Below the pieces are notes generated by a model. It saw nothing but the letters and a program-made list of their open reading frames with translations. It did no database searches and was not told the DNA's origin. A stretch of DNA of 64,000 bases. Source: Phycisphaerae bacterium (GTDB lineage: Bacteria > Planctomycetota > Phycisphaerae > Tepidisphaerales > Tepidisphaeraceae). The stretch lies in the NCBI GenBank assembly GCA_025924315.1, contig JAICIO010000013.1, forward strand, positions 1-64,000. The letters are read 5' to 3'. Below, one piece after another: positions 7,834 through 33,574 of this stretch (the stretch's first letter is position 1; every line of letters starts with the position of its first letter). A program made the position numbers and the translations under genes.

Positions 7834-7914
7834 GTCATCCTGAGCGCGCAGCGAAGGATCTCGGGCTCGAGAGCGATTTGCGGATTGGAGATCCTTCGCT
7901 GCGCTCAGGATGAC
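7834..7914. repeat. Dispersed palindromic element, GTCATYCTGAGC family
   Basis: The left arm 7834-7862 (GTCATCCTGAGCGCGCAGCG and on) and right arm 7888-7914 (ending CGCTCAGGATGAC) are inverted copies with a two-base indel. It separates convergent genes ending at 7813 and 7948. Other members are at 19662, 21251-21329 and 32251-32443. Confidence 0.9.
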
Positions 7915-7947: not shown

Positions 7948-10900
7948 TTAAGCGCTGGCGACGAGCGCCGGCTTAGCGACCGATGACGGCCTGTGGAGCT
8001 TCGGCGCCAGGTACTCCGCGGTGTGGCTGCCTTTAGTTTCGGCGATTTGTTCGGGGGTGCCGGTGGCGATGACTTGGCCGCCGCCTTGGCCGCCTTCGGG
8101 GCCCATGTCGATCAGCCAGTCGGCGCACTTGATCACGTCGAGGTTGTGTTCGATCACGAGCACCGTGTTGCCCATGTCGGCGAGGCGGTTCAGGACGTTC
8201 AGCAGGTTGTGGATGTCAGCGAAGTGTAAACCTGTGGTGGGTTCGTCGAGGACGTACAGCGTGTGACCGGTCGGAGTTTTGCCGAGCTCGGTGGCGAGCT
8301 TCACACGCTGCGCTTCGCCGCCGCTGAGCTGCGTGCTGGGTTGGCCGATCTTCACGTAGCTCAGGCCGACGTCGTTGATCGCCTTGAGCATCTGGTAGAT
8401 GCGCGGGAAGTTTTCGAAGAACGCGAGCGCTTCTTCGACCGTCATGTTCAACACTTCCGCGATCGTTTTGCCGCGGTAGTGGATCTGCAGGGTCTCGGCG
8501 TTGTAGCGCGTGCCGTGGCACACTTCGCAATTGACGTACACGTCGGGCAGGAAGTGCATCTCGATGCACTTCGTGCCCTGGCCCTGGCACGATTCGCAGC
8601 GGCCGCCTTTCACGTTGAAGCTGAAGCGGCCCATCTCGTATCCGCGGAGCTTCGCTTCGCGCGTTTGCGAGAAGACTTTGCGGATCTCGTCGAACACGCC
8701 GGTGTAGGTCGCGGGATTGGAGCGCGGCGTGCGACCGATCGGCGATTGGTCGATCTCGATCACCTTGTCGATCTTCTGCGCGCCGTTGAGGGTCTTGTGC
8801 TCGCCGGCTTTGACCTTGGAACCGTAGAGCTTGCGCTTGAGCGCGGGCAGCAGCGTCTGGTTGATAAGTGTCGATTTGCCGGAGCCGGAAACGCCGGTGA
8901 TGCAGACGAATCCGCCGAGAGGAATCCTCACGTCGATGTTCTTTAGATTATTCTCCCGGCAGCCTTTGAGTTCGAGGCAGTTCTTATCGGGATCGACGGG
9001 GCGGCGCTCGTCGGGTGGATGGATGGAGAACTCGCCTGTGAGGTACTTTAGCGTCGTGGACTGGTAGTTGGGATTGATATAAACGTCGTCGTTGCTCATG
9101 CGCGACTTCCGCGAAGATGCAAGCAACTTCGATGCGCGCTCGGCTGTCTCGAGCAACTCGTTCACTGGGCCGGTGACGACGACGTTTCCGCCGTGGGCGC
9201 CGGCGCCGGGGCCGATGTCGATTAAGTAGTCAGCCGCGCGGATGCAGTCTTCGTCGTGTTCGACCATCAGCACGGTGTTGCCGATGTCGCGCAGGCGCAG
9301 GAGCGTTCTAATCAGTCGGGTGTTGTCGCGCTGGTGCAGGCCGATCGTGGGCTCGTCGAGGACGTAGCAGACGCCGACGAGACCAGAGCCGACTTGCGTC
9401 GCGAGACGAATGCGTTGCGCTTCGCCGCCGGAAAGGGAACCGGTCTTGCGATCGAGCGTGAGATAGCCGAGGCCGACGTCGACCATGAAGCCAAGCCGCG
9501 CCGCGATTTCGCGAACGATTGGCTCGGCGATTTTCTGCCCTTCTTCGCCGAGCTTCAGCGCTTCGAAGAAACGCTTGGCGTATTCGACCATGAACGTGGT
9601 GACGTCGTGGATCGAATAGCCGGGGATTTGAACATCCGCATTGGTGGCGAGGGCATCTTGCCCTCGTGCCTTGGATTTTCGCTTGCGCGAGGGCGCGACG
9701 GTCTCGCCATTATTTTCCAACGCATCTTCGCCGGCGTTGGGCTGGTCCTGGTCGATTTCCCCAGATTTGCGAACGGCGCAGCTCGGGCCGGCCGAATGGA
9801 ATTCCGGGATCGGCAATTGCGGCGGCGCGCCTTCTATGTGCAATCGCACCGCCATCGCTTCCTTGCGCAGGCGCGTGCCCTTGCAGACCTGGCACGGTTG
9901 TTCACTCATGTACTGGTGCAGCCGCGCTTTGACCCATTCGCTTTCGGTGTTATCGAAGCGCCGCTGGAGGTTAGGAATCACGCCTTCGAATTCGGTTCCG
10001 GTGCCGAGGTCGCCCTTCTTATCCGTGCCGTACATCAGCACGTCGCGAACTTTCTTGGGAATGTCTTTGTACGGCGCGGTGTAGCTGATGCTGTAATCGC
10101 GGGCGAACTGCCGCAGTACGCGGCTGTACCAGATGTTCATTCGCTTGCCATTTTTCCGCCACGCTTCGACGGCGCCGTTTTCGAGCGAAAGCGATTCGTC
10201 CGCGACGATCAGGTCCGGGTCGAATTCGCAGGTTGTGCCTAGGCCATGACAGGCGGGACACGCGCCGTGCGGGCTGTTGAAGCTGAACAGCCGCGGTTCA
10301 AGCTCGGGAAGACTTACGTGCGGATGCAGCGGACAGGCGAACTTTTCGGAGTAGACGTTGTCGCTCCACGAGCCATCAGCGTTGCCGACCGTGACGATCA
10401 CGAGACCTTGCGCAAGCTTCAGCGCGGTCTCGATCGAGTCGGCGACGCGCGAACGAATTTCGGCTTTGATCACGATGCGATCGACGATCGCTTCGATGTT
10501 GTGGGCGAAGGTTTTTTGAAGCTTCGGCGCGTTCTCCGGCTTTTGCAGCTCGATGAGCTGACCATCGACGCGCGCGCGAACAAAGCCCTGCTTGTGAATC
10601 GCGCCGAAGATGTCCTTGTGCTCGCCCTTCTGCCCACGAACCAGCGGCGAGAGGATCATGACCTTTGTGCCCGCGGGAAATTTCATCACCGCATCGACGA
10701 TCTGCGATGGCGATTGGCTCGAGATCTCTCGGCCGCATTCCCAGCAATGCGGCGTGCCGGCGCGGGCGAAGAGGACGCGAAGGTAGTCGTAGATTTCCGT
10801 CGTCGTCGCGACGATCGATCGCGGATTGCTCGATGCATGCCGCTGCTCGATCGCGATCGTGGGTGGTAGTCCTTCGACTTCCTCGACATCCGGCTTCTGC

Positions 10901-19661: not shown

Positions 19662-19690
19662 TGTCATTCTGAGCGAAGCGAAGAACCTGG
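19662..19690. repeat. Solitary half of the GTCATYCTGAGC palindromic family
   Basis: The sequence TGTCATTCTGAGCGAAGCG and the next ten bases match one arm of the elements at 7834, 21251 and 32251. No inverted partner arm is seen downstream before the next gene, so it is a half-element. Confidence 0.75.
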
Positions 19691-19733: not shown

Positions 19734-21260
19734 GTGGGCGAGGCAATCAAGGGTGCACGCGATCGCTTTCGGGCGGAGCCGAATCCGATTTTCGCGGAGC
19801 GAATTCTCCGGCCGATTTTTGAGTTCAACTGCGAGCACAACTTTCGGCCGCTGATCGAAGCGCATCGGGCATGGTTGACGATGCTGGTCGAGCGAAACAT
19901 TGTCCCGCGCGACTCGGCGGCGAAGATCCTGCGCGCACTGGATGAGATCGAAAAAGCCGGACCGGACTCGATGCGACCCTTCGACCGCGCCGTGGAATTC
20001 TTCTACCTGCACATGGAGCGCGCGATCGTGTCGCGCGTGCCTGGCGGAGAACCGGCGGTCGGGAATCTCAACCTCGGCCGCACCCGTCCCGAACCGCTGG
20101 CGCGGATGGTCGTGCGCGATGCACTTCTGCGCGTGCTCGACGGTGTCATCCACATGCGCCGTGGGCTGATCGAGCGCGCGGAAGCCGAAGCCGAAACGGT
20201 GATGCCCGGCTACACGCATCTTCTGCACGCGCAGCCGACGACGCTCGGTCATTATCTGCTCGCGATTCACGATCATCTCGAACGCGATACGCAGCGATTG
20301 CTCGCGGCTTACGAAACCACCGATCAATGCACGCTTGGCTGCGGCGCCATGTCCGGGACGAGCCTGCCGGTCGATCGCGAGCTCGTTCGCGAATTGCTGG
20401 GCTTCGCCACGCTCTGTGAGAACACGATCGACAGCGTTTCCGCTTCGGATCACGTGACGGAAAGCGCTTCCGCCCTCGCAGGGCTGATGACGATTATCGG
20501 GCGACTCAGCCAGGATCTGTATATCTGGTCGAGCCAGGAATTCGGAATGATCGACATCACCGATGCATTCGCTTCGCCGAGCAGTTTGATGCCGCAGAAG
20601 AAGAACGCGCTGGTGCTGGAATACATTCGCTCGCGCACCGCGCGGGTGATCGGCCAACTGGCGGGTTCGTTCGCGGTGCTGCACAACGTTGGTTACATGG
20701 ATACGGAAGAAGTCGAGCTGGAAACGTATCAGCCGCTGGTGGAAGCGTTCGAGTTGACCGAGCAGGCGCTGCCGTCGATCGACGCGTTCGTCATGGCGAT
20801 GGAGCCGCAGCGCGAATTGATGCGGCAGCGCGCGGCGTGGGGATTCTCCAGCGTGACGGCGCTCGCCGAGGCGCTCCACACGCAGAAGGATTTGTCGTAT
20901 CGCACGGCGCATCGCGTGGTCGCGCGCTCGGTGTTGCTGGCGGTCGAACACGGTCGTGACGCGACGGGCATCGATACGGCGCTACTCGATCAAGCGGCGC
21001 AGGAGATGATCGGCACGAAGCTCGGTGTCGATGCGAAAACGATCAGCGAATGCCTCGATCCGCGGCGGTTCGTCGAGCAGCACAAGGTGACTGGCGCAAC
21101 GGCGCCGGCCGAAGTGCGCCGCATGGCCGGCGAACGACGCAAACGCCTCGCGAACGACGAGCGGAGTGTGAAGGCACACAAGGACCGCATCGCAGACGGA
21201 CAAAAGCGCCTGCGCGACGCAGTTTCCCGCATCGTGTCTTCCTCGGCCGTGTCATCGTGA
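19734..21260 (+). CDS. argH: Argininosuccinate lyase (fumarase/aspartase superfamily)
   Basis: ArgH releases arginine and fumarate from argininosuccinate, the last step of arginine synthesis. The 508-residue product has the superfamily signature ASPSSLMPQKKNALVLEYIR (about residues 280-300). It also has GYTHLLHAQPTTLGHYLLAI with the usual catalytic-site His, and TLGCGAMSGTSLPVDR. The N-terminus (GARDRFRAEPNPIFAERILR) departs from classic ArgH, so a related lyase acting on another substrate cannot be excluded. The C-terminus is about 50 residues longer than usual and basic. I chose the GTG at 19734 because AGGAGG lies at 19722-19727. The stop lies inside a palindromic repeat at 21251. Confidence 0.82.
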   Translation: MGEAIKGARDRFRAEPNPIFAERILRPIFEFNCEHNFRPLIEAHRAWLTMLVERNIVPRDSAAKILRALDEIEKAGPDSMRPFDRAVEFFYLHMERAIVSRVPGGEPAVGNLNLGRTRPEPLARMVVRDALLRVLDGVIHMRRGLIERAEAEAETVMPGYTHLLHAQPTTLGHYLLAIHDHLERDTQRLLAAYETTDQCTLGCGAMSGTSLPVDRELVRELLGFATLCENTIDSVSASDHVTESASALAGLMTIIGRLSQDLYIWSSQEFGMIDITDAFASPSSLMPQKKNALVLEYIRSRTARVIGQLAGSFAVLHNVGYMDTEEVELETYQPLVEAFELTEQALPSIDAFVMAMEPQRELMRQRAAWGFSSVTALAEALHTQKDLSYRTAHRVVARSVLLAVEHGRDATGIDTALLDQAAQEMIGTKLGVDAKTISECLDPRRFVEQHKVTGATAPAEVRRMAGERRKRLANDERSVKAHKDRIADGQKRLRDAVSRIVSSSAVSS

Positions 21261-21329
21261 GCAAAGCGAAGGATCTCGATACCGGACGACGCGCTCGAAC
21301 CGGAGATTCTTCGCTTCGCTCAGAATGAC
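21251..21329. repeat. Dispersed palindromic element, GTCATYCTGAGC family
   Basis: The left arm 21251-21277 (GTCATCGTGAGCAAAGCGAA and on) and right arm 21303-21329 are imperfect inverted copies. The argH stop codon TGA (21258-21260) lies within the left arm. Confidence 0.88.
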
Positions 21330-31104: not shown

Positions 31105-32244
31105 ATGAGATGGTCCTTCAAATTCGCACGCGTCGCGGGGATCGATCTCCGCGTCCACATCACGTTCTTCCTTATCGTCATCCTCGGCGCGGGCCAATTC
31201 GCCCGCTTCGGCACACCCGGAATGCTCTTCGGCGCCGCGATGATCCTGCTGCTGTTTCTTTGCGTCACGCTGCACGAGCTTGGTCACGCCCTCGTCGCGC
31301 AACGATTTCACGTTGAGGTAAAGGAGATCATCCTCCTGCCGATCGGTGGCGTTGCGATGCTGAGCCGCATTCCGCGGAAGCCGTCGCAGGAATTATTCAT
31401 CGCGATCGCGGGGCCGCTCGTGAACGTCGTCATCGCCGCCGCAATCATCCTCGGCATCGGTGTGAACACGTCGCTCGGCCGGATGAACCTGAACGATCTC
31501 GTGACGACGGCGCACGCAGGTCCTTCGACTTTTCTCGCGATGAAATATCTGCTCGACGCGAACGTCGCGCTCGTGCTCTTCAACCTGATCCCCGCCTTTC
31601 CCCTTGACGGCGGACGCATCCTCCGCGCGCTTCTCGCGATGCGCCTGCCGTACGCCCGCGCGACACAAGTGGCCGCCGGCATCGGTCAGACCGCCGCGAT
31701 CCTGCTCGGCATGTGGGGCTTGATGGGCGGTGGAATTCTCGTGATTGTCGTCGCGGTCTTCATCTTCTTCGCCGCCGGCGCCGAAAACATGGAAGGCCAG
31801 ACGCGCACGGTACTCGCGAGCCATCGCGTGGGAGAAGCCTACAACCGCCACGCGCTCACGCTCTCGCCGAACGATCGCATCGATCGCGTGATTCATTACA
31901 TCCTTAACAGCTATCAACCCGATTTCGCGGTAATGGACGGCCACGACATCCTCGGCGTCGTGACGCGCGAGGACGTCATCCGCTCGCTCGCGCAGCACGC
32001 CGGCGACGTGCCTGTTACCCAGGTGATGCACCCGGCCGTCGTGCGCGTGCACGCGGATCAAACGCTCGATCAGGTGAGGCAATCGATGAGCGAGCAAAGC
32101 TCGCGCCTTGCCGCAGTGTATGAAGGCGATCGCTATCTCGGTCTCGTCAGCGCGGAGGATATTGCCGAAGCATTCGCGCTGCTTAAGTTTTTCGATAACA
32201 CGTCCGCAGACGGAAGCGTTGAGGGCAAGGAGATTGTGGTCTAG
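31105..32244 (+). CDS. Site-2-protease-type M50 metalloprotease with CBS domains
   Basis: The 379-residue intramembrane protease has the zinc motif HELGH (residues 57-61) in a membrane helix and the third zinc ligand in NLIPAFPLDGGRIL (Asp168). About five to six helices are present. Two CBS domains follow (about 236-360: SPNDRIDRVIHYILNSYQPD and VMHPAVVRVHADQTLDQV), which usually bind adenine nucleotides and regulate the enzyme. Such proteins cleave membrane-bound anti-sigma factors or other small membrane proteins. No partner is evident nearby. A GGAG lies 6 bases before the ATG. Confidence 0.92.
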   Translation: MRWSFKFARVAGIDLRVHITFFLIVILGAGQFARFGTPGMLFGAAMILLLFLCVTLHELGHALVAQRFHVEVKEIILLPIGGVAMLSRIPRKPSQELFIAIAGPLVNVVIAAAIILGIGVNTSLGRMNLNDLVTTAHAGPSTFLAMKYLLDANVALVLFNLIPAFPLDGGRILRALLAMRLPYARATQVAAGIGQTAAILLGMWGLMGGGILVIVVAVFIFFAAGAENMEGQTRTVLASHRVGEAYNRHALTLSPNDRIDRVIHYILNSYQPDFAVMDGHDILGVVTREDVIRSLAQHAGDVPVTQVMHPAVVRVHADQTLDQVRQSMSEQSSRLAAVYEGDRYLGLVSAEDIAEAFALLKFFDNTSADGSVEGKEIVV

Positions 32245-32250
32245 TCGCGT

Positions 32251-32443
32251 CTGTCATTCTGAGAGAGTGCGAGTTTCTCGACGTGGCGAGGGCATCTTGC
32301 CCTCGCGAACGCGGCTGTAGCCGCAAATGCGAGGGCGAGACGCCCTCGCCACACAAAAACTCACACACTCTGAGCGAAGCGAAGAATCTCGGGTCTTGCG
32401 CGTCGTCCGATTTCGAGATCCTTCGCTGCGCTCAGGATGACAT
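32251..32443. repeat. Nested palindromic elements: GTGGCGAGGGC element inside a GTCATTCTGAG element
   Basis: The outer family arms are at 32251-32263 plus 32369-32390 and at 32415-32443. The inner 105-base segment 32264-32368 carries the GTGGCGAGGGC arms 32283-32307 and 32329-32352. TCTGAG occurs on both sides of the inner segment (32258-32263 and 32369-32374). Removing the inner segment with one TCTGAG copy restores the sequence seen at 19661-19685, GTCATTCTGAGCGAAGCG. Confidence 0.85.
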
Positions 32444-32452
32444 ATCTGAATT

Positions 32453-33574
32453 CTATGGCCCTACCGGTTCGGCGACGAGCGCCTCTTTCGATCGATGCTT
32501 GCTTACCACCGACGCCACGACGCCAATCATGAGGATCAGCAGAATCGCACCGAGCATGTAGAAGTTGAAGTAATCACCCAGCAGCGCTTTCAGCGGCTTG
32601 TGCGCCAGCATCTTCACGCCCACCAAAAGCAGCACGAACGCGAGCGCCGGCTTGAGATAGCGGAACTTGTCGATCATCCCCGCCAGCGCGAAATACAAAC
32701 TGCGCAGCCCAAGCATCGCGAAAACGTTGCTCGTGAAGACGATGAACGGATCGGTCGTGATGGCAAAGATCGCGGGGATCGAATCGACCGCGAAGATCAG
32801 GTCGGTGAATTCGATCAACACGAGCGCGACGAACAGCGGCGTCATCATCAGCGTGCCGATGTTCGCAGCATCGATGGCGGCGTCCGCCCGCTCGGGCTCG
32901 CCCGCGATCGCCGGTTCGTGCGCATGACCCGAGCCCGCGCGCACGAAGAAATGCTGGCCGTGAAAGTTCGATGTCACCGGAAATAAACGCTTCGTGAGAC
33001 GAACGATGAGATTGTTCGATGGATCGCCTTTCTCGCTCTTCATGAACAACATTTTCGCGCCGGTGAGGATGAGGAATCCGCCGAAGACGAAGATGATCCA
33101 ATGATAACGATGGATCAGTTCTGCCCCCAGCCAGATCATTACGCCGCGCATCAGCAGCGCGCCGAGAATCCCCCAGAACAGCACGCGATGCTGATACACT
33201 GCCGGCACTGCGAGGAAACCAAAGATCATCGCGATGACGAAAATGTTGTCGATTGAGAGCGACTTCTCGATCACATAACCCGTGAGATACTTGATCGTCG
33301 CCGCGGATCCATTCAGCTCGCCGAGCGGATTGCTCTCCGTCACCGCCATCTGATCGAGCGGTGTGCCGTCGAGGCTTTTCCCGAGCCCGAGCCAATGTTT
33401 TTCATATCCAAAATAAATGAACGCGGTGAAGACCAGCGCGATCGTGATCCATACCGCCGACCATGTCAGCGCTTCCTTCACGCTGACGACGTGCGCTTTG
33501 CGATGAAACACGCCCAGATCCAGGGCGAGAAATACGAGAATGAGCGCGATGAACCCAAGCCATGCGAAAAGCAT
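32453..33574 (-). CDS. TerC/Alx-family integral membrane protein
   Basis: The 373-residue protein has about nine membrane helices and matches TerC: early LGVFHRKAHVVSVKEAL, the acidic helix VIEKSLSIDNIFVIAMIFGF, and FTDLIFAVDSIPAIFAIT. The final core part is FTSNVFAMLGLRSLYFAL. The conserved intramembrane Asp residues are those in LSIDNIF and FAVDSIP. The family exports or balances Mn2+ or Ca2+ and may help metal loading of secreted proteins. An insert (HGQHFFVRAGSGHAHEPAIA) with several His lies in the central loop, as in Alx relatives. Only 60 bases separate it from the upstream gene. Confidence 0.92.
   Translation of the reverse strand: MLFAWLGFIALILVFLALDLGVFHRKAHVVSVKEALTWSAVWITIALVFTAFIYFGYEKHWLGLGKSLDGTPLDQMAVTESNPLGELNGSAATIKYLTGYVIEKSLSIDNIFVIAMIFGFLAVPAVYQHRVLFWGILGALLMRGVMIWLGAELIHRYHWIIFVFGGFLILTGAKMLFMKSEKGDPSNNLIVRLTKRLFPVTSNFHGQHFFVRAGSGHAHEPAIAGEPERADAAIDAANIGTLMMTPLFVALVLIEFTDLIFAVDSIPAIFAITTDPFIVFTSNVFAMLGLRSLYFALAGMIDKFRYLKPALAFVLLLVGVKMLAHKPLKALLGDYFNFYMLGAILLILMIGVVASVVSKHRSKEALVAEPVGP

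Follow-up and report, generated by a model that had tools for sequence, protein, structure and literature searches.

Recurrent insertion of gene-less miniature elements, very probably by transposition, at one site in REPIN-like arms

Very probably, a miniature non-autonomous transposon inserted into one arm of a REPIN-like element with duplication of its CTGAG target, and in the same genome some 40 to 50 arms received such insertions independently. The locus lies in a window of 64,000 nt (the whole stretch of DNA analysed), which is part of contig C13 of a 6.57 Mb draft genome, and it is placed between convergent genes for an M50 peptidase with CBS domains and a TerC family protein (Table 1). 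The GTGGCGAGGGC palindrome sits within a separate shell whose ends are AGNNTGTGA, so that the nest reads as three layers: the core in the shell, and the shell in an arm that spans 32253-32391. An earlier sequence-only reading had described an element inserted into an element, with 32264-32368 as a single GTGGCGAGGGC-type palindrome; the insertion holds genome-wide, in 39 composites and in both insert orientations, but the inner unit has two parts, with the palindrome proper confined to 32283-32352 and the remainder being shell. An Rfam search of the window gave no match. Elsewhere in the window, positions 9644-9709 hold a remnant of the GTGGCGAGGGC palindrome that has diverged to 72% identity with the core and has neither shell nor arm.

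Table 1. Coordinates of the nested locus, its neighbouring genes and the comparison elements in the window.
Feature	Position	Strand	Remarks
Left REP-like arm, outer part GTCATT CTGAG	32253..32263	+	Includes the left target copy CTGAG, 32259-32263; arm consensus from 82 arms
Inserted gene-less element, 106 bp	32264..32369	+	Palindromic core within a shell whose terminal inverted repeats, AGAGTGCGAG.. / ..CTCACACACT, are imperfect
Palindromic core GTGGCGAGGGC...GCCCTCGCCAC, 70 bp	32283..32352	.	Also alone at about 10 other sites in 1.61 Mb
Shell flanks of the core	32264-32282 and 32353-32369		Separate from the palindrome proper
Right copy of the duplicated target CTGAG	32370..32374	+	
Interrupted left arm, inner part CGAAGCGAAGAATCTCG	32375..32391	+	
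Variable loop of the REPIN-like element	32392..32413	.	
Right arm, intact	32414..32441	-	GTCATCCTGAGCGCAGCGAAGGATCTCG on the - strand
Uninterrupted REPIN-like element, 79 bp, for comparison	21251..21329	.	Fold z = -4.2
Second uninterrupted REPIN-like element, 81 bp	7834..7914	.	Left arm with a 2-bp insertion
Lone arm, comparison copy of the sequence-only reading	19663..19685	+	
M50 peptidase with CBS domains	31105-32244	+	Neighbouring gene of the locus
TerC family protein	32453-33574	-	Neighbouring gene of the locus

The traces of insertion at the locus are direct. TCTGAG had been reported on both flanks of the insert and is indeed present, at 32258-32263 and 32369-32374; the two CTGAG copies also show up within C13:32259-32272 (+) and C13:32361-32374 (-). 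As had also been proposed, deletion recreates the outer repeat: removal of 32264-32369 and one CTGAG yields GTCATTCTGAGCGAAGCG, which occurs uninterrupted at 19663 and 21312 and has seven matches in the window at up to three mismatches, versus 0.18 expected by chance. The copy originally chosen for this comparison, given as starting at 19662, starts one base later and is a lone arm; the complete copies are the two uninterrupted elements of Table 1.

The outer repeat, GTCATTCTGAGCGAAGCGAAGAA, is abundant throughout the genome, with 142 forward and 141 reverse matches at up to three mismatches, versus 1 and 0 for the reversed control. In the 1.61 Mb of genome read directly, the outer element is mostly exactly 79 bp long, with 28-bp arms, GTCATYCTGAGCGNAGCGAAGRATCTCG, in inverted orientation on either side of a loop of nearly constant length and very variable sequence; for example, the elements at C1:85517-85595, C3:5719-5797 and window 21251-21329 have loops of 22-23 bp and nearly invariant arms. 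Across 82 arms, positions 6 and 22 covary: they are Watson-Crick pairs in 80 of the 82 (C-G in 56, T-A in 23 and G-C in 1), and their mutual information is 0.85 bits, versus 0.1 for the next pair. Because of this covariation, each arm probably forms a small hairpin. In the arm's minimum-energy DNA fold these same two positions pair, with an energy no better than that of shuffled sequences, and the whole uninterrupted element folds as a larger hairpin (z = -4.2).

These features are those of a REPIN: an inverted REP doublet, a variable loop, a hairpin-forming sequence and, at the ends of the outer element, no target duplication above chance. Like REPINs (PMC3116915), the host element pairs inverted arms of about 28 bp around a variable loop of near-fixed length, forms a hairpin and lacks an outer duplication; unlike them, its arms have no GTAG tag and no RAYT gene was found beside them. 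In particular, the genome has 10 Y1 transposase genes, two of which resemble RAYT while scoring below the curated cut-off, and no arm occurs within the approximately 1.5 kb fetched on each side of these genes. In the excerpts of PMC3733652, CGTC- and GTAG-tagged repeats are high-copy extragenic palindromes, often inverted dimers, and the CGTC-tagged ones have no linked transposase. The host element resembles them as a high-copy extragenic palindrome and inverted dimer for which no linked transposase was found, whereas its GTCAT tag has no constant preceding C and its hairpin fits no family named in those excerpts. A literature query with the arm sequence returned one irrelevant hit and no relevant paper among those searched. 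A relative from another genus of the same family (G041; for example, locus L250) has 127 matching arms, in pairs of about 190 bp rather than the 79 bp seen here.

The window's composite is matched end to end, over its full length, at about 20 other sites in the genome. Overall, there are 39 composites of the form GTCATY-CTGAG-insert-CTGAG-CGNAGCGAAG, with the same architecture and the same insertion base; this count comes from the 1.61 Mb read directly and from loci around matches, with duplicates removed, and is a lower bound. The terminal inverted repeats of the inserts are AGNNTGTGA / TCACANNCT. Between these same ends lie two unrelated cores, which divide the inserts into class B (about 106 bp, GTGGCGAGGGC core) and class C (about 117 bp, GAGCCGCGACCG core); insert lengths range from 104 to 118 bp, with a few deletion forms of 63-66 bp. 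The inserts have the traits of MITEs, being short and gene-less with terminal inverted repeats and a target duplication; they encode no transposase, and no long version was seen in the genome. The inserted element of the locus has a DNA fold z of -8.8. Further, the GTGGCGAGGGC core is itself a separate palindromic repeat, with about 10 copies lacking the shell in 1.61 Mb, mostly 80-89% identical to the insert cores, and related stand-alone copies in the relative G020. Identical inserts occur at eight different loci, and pairs of inserts have a median identity of 97%, which argues for fairly recent movement.

The same shell ends occur around different palindromic cores in relatives G013 (L260, L263, L266, L269, L272) and G016 (L259, L262, L265, L268, L271), which are of other genera, and several of these shell elements likewise adjoin GTCATCC. 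All relatives compared belong to other genera.

The arms carry a record of whether these insertions were one event or many. Of the 39 composites, 36 still have complementary bases at arm positions 6 and 22, which the insert separates (C-G in 25, T-A in 10 and G-C in 1; Fisher p about 2e-7 for the two commonest states). The most economical reading is that every insert went into an arm already in its 6/22 state, because a composite of single origin would need the two separated positions to change in step. A single ancestral insertion, followed by spread of the resulting composite of about 190 bp as a unit, would explain why the window's composite is matched in full by many others and why composites end in the same GTCATYCTGAG as the stand-alone element; limited copying as a unit would also fit composites L037 and L181, which share a loop. 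As an account of the whole set it is nonetheless improbable, since composites retain the arm covariation, in three states, despite the insert, and the inserts occur in both orientations with two unrelated cores. Moreover, judged by nearest neighbours (13 versus 15.5 expected), composite loops resemble one another no more than they resemble the loops of uninterrupted elements, as would be the case for composites that are not copied whole. The retained 6/22 pair, together with a central target base that goes with the arm and not with the insert when the insert is reversed (see below), supports independent transposition into existing arms. In agreement with this, two loci have inserts in both arms, L194 and L210/L038, the latter of which may be one locus split between contigs.

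Insertion takes place at one fixed arm bond, GTCATYCTGAG^CGNAGCGAAGRAT, in the 39 composites, and inserts of class B and class C share it; other insert copies lie in arm relics or have an outer/outer form. Within the 1.61 Mb, all 10 inserts are in arms or arm relics, while arms make up about 5% of CTSAG sites. At L198 the CTGAG repeat is present and the site resembles an arm weakly. The outer/outer form is represented by five copies, all C-type, that are flanked at either end by the outer part of an arm and lack a direct repeat. They probably arose by recombination between inserts that occupied both arms of one element; double-arm insertion, which is seen, followed by this step would give exactly such copies. 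The reverse derivation, in which the composites arose by recombination or template switching between an outer/outer element GTCATCCTGAG-B-CTCAGGATGAC and a REPIN-like element, draws on the existence of these five copies and on the common end GTCATYCTGAG, which offers homology. It is very unlikely: the outer/outer copies all have C at the variable base, whereas T-type composites have an inner half that pairs with their T (10 T-A), and the junction would be needed about 40 times at the same 2-bp microhomology. Outer/outer copies were accordingly rejected as the parental form, since T-type arms yield T-type composites.

The sequence-only reading had proposed a 6-bp target duplication, to be checked by a genome survey of flanking repeats, and had named two observations that would count against it: copies without duplication, and TCTGAG as part of the inner element's own ends. 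In the survey, 33 of the 39 composites have an identical CTGAG on both sides of the insert, which upholds the duplication, and copies without it are a small minority, namely the five outer/outer copies and mutated ones. The length of six bases was rejected: the sixth base, the first T of TCTGAG, belongs to the insert. All 33 inserts end in T, whereas the arm base at this position is C in 24 copies, T in eight and G in one. The remaining CTGAG does not behave as an insert end. Inserts were oriented by their core to ask whether it was one, and the central base of CTNAG, seen from the insert, is G/G in 29 of 30 core-plus copies and C/C in 11 of 12 core-minus copies, following the arm in 40 of 42 (Fisher p about 4e-10, concordant cases). 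Because a reversed core changes the central base on both sides together, the flanking CTGAG repeat is read as derived from the target. Hardly any credence is left for the view that the right CTGAG is the inner element's own end without any duplication, as in IS200/IS605-type elements, which insert 3' of a short target and bear a cleavage site resembling it: all arm targets are CTGAG, so that the two origins look alike until orientation changes, and the extra T is indeed the insert's own, but reversed inserts show both flanks as CTCAG relative to themselves in those 11 of 12 cases.

With the repeat assigned to the target, the duplication is at most CTGAG (5 bp) and possibly TNA (3 bp); it is left at 3 to 5 bp because the targets are CTGAG or CTCAG, whose outer C and G may belong either to the target or to the element. 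A 3-bp TNA duplication, leaving GAG ends, is favoured by a group of inserts whose left end reads CTGAA and by TNAG contexts in G016, a relative, with the qualification that the first search of relatives had TNA in its pattern and an unbiased search gave a mixed picture. In G013 and G016, no clean flanking repeats were found around elements with these ends.

Taken at the level of sequence, the composites establish how the elements are arranged, that this arrangement recurs, where the insert enters, that the repeat stems from the target and that most events were independent. The proposed mechanism is as follows. A 106-bp shell-plus-core element would enter one REPIN-like arm by cut- or copy-and-paste transposition, and the target CTGAG would be duplicated over 3 to 5 bp. 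A second miniature element, with another core and the same ends, would target the same arm bond, both having moved independently. A transposase acting in trans would recognise the AGNNTGTGA ends and select the arm as its target.

The search for a RAYT or other transposase able to act on the two families, which the sequence-only reading had also called for, identified none. A search for DDE transposases flanked by matching ends was negative, with 0 PF01609, 0 PF13586 and one PF00665 in the genome. Likewise, no autonomous partner with the same ends was found in the genome, and the PF01609 loci of G013 and G016 lack these ends. Each shell end inspected has a partner a short distance away, sits at a contig end or belongs to a damaged copy. 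A long autonomous partner could be absent from the draft assembly, because the assembly is broken at many such repeats; contigs end inside inserts at C61:1, C117:1, C135:1, C177:1 and C103:1. The ends, readable as GAG...CTC, and the possible TNA target recall the IS1031 group of the IS5 family, which provides a lead. Checked against this pattern, the targets are CTGAG or CTCAG, where 3 and 5 bp are inseparable, and the CTGAA left-end variants and some relatives favour 3 bp. Like bacterial MITEs derived from the IS5 family (IS1031-like), the inserts are small and gene-less with terminal inverted repeats; unlike them, they target a specific palindromic arm instead of scattered TNA sites, and no parent IS was found.

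Insertion into REP sequences is already known, and gene-less nested inserts on such a scale are a variant of it. According to the excerpts of PMC1525189, the REP-specific insertion sequences IS1397, ISKpn1, IS621, ISPsy8, ISRm22, ISPpu9/10 and ISPa11 occupy a fixed position in a palindromic repeat, with direct repeats of 3 bp for ISPsy8 and 6 bp for ISRm22. The same excerpts describe ISPpu9 and ISPpu10 as unrelated elements with one common insertion point, and ascribe a few copies without repeats to recombination between copies. The present inserts are similar in their single fixed arm position, their short direct repeats, their use of one insertion point by two unrelated cores and their few repeat-less copies, and, as with the type 1 elements of these excerpts, the 39 composites all break the repeat at a single point. 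However, the REP-specific insertion sequences described there encode a transposase, with at most 9 copies per genome in type 1 cases, whereas the present inserts of about 106-117 bp are gene-less, occupy about 40-50 sites in one genome and have no enzyme found for them. REPINs inserted into or beside REPINs have also been mentioned (PMC3116915).

The inserts differ from these systems in lacking genes, in their high number and in having palindromic cores that also exist alone, which was shown for one of the two; they also sit in a repeat family whose arm sequence led to no relevant paper. A broader reading is possible but doubtful: gene-less elements with a common shell (AGNNTGTGANNTTTT ends) and interchangeable palindromic cores, at least one of them free-standing, may have spread over several genera through a transposase that recognises a structured feature of the REP arm, and the three layers would then be three mobile families, each travelling inside another. 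The locus is a clear new example of mobile elements using bacterial palindromic repeats as landing sites; here, the REP-type repeats of an uncultured lineage serve other repeats as a landing pad. With about 40 natural, base-precise insertions into an internally covarying hairpin arm, and the empty target present in well over a hundred copies, the genome is a good system for learning how transposases choose palindromic repeats.
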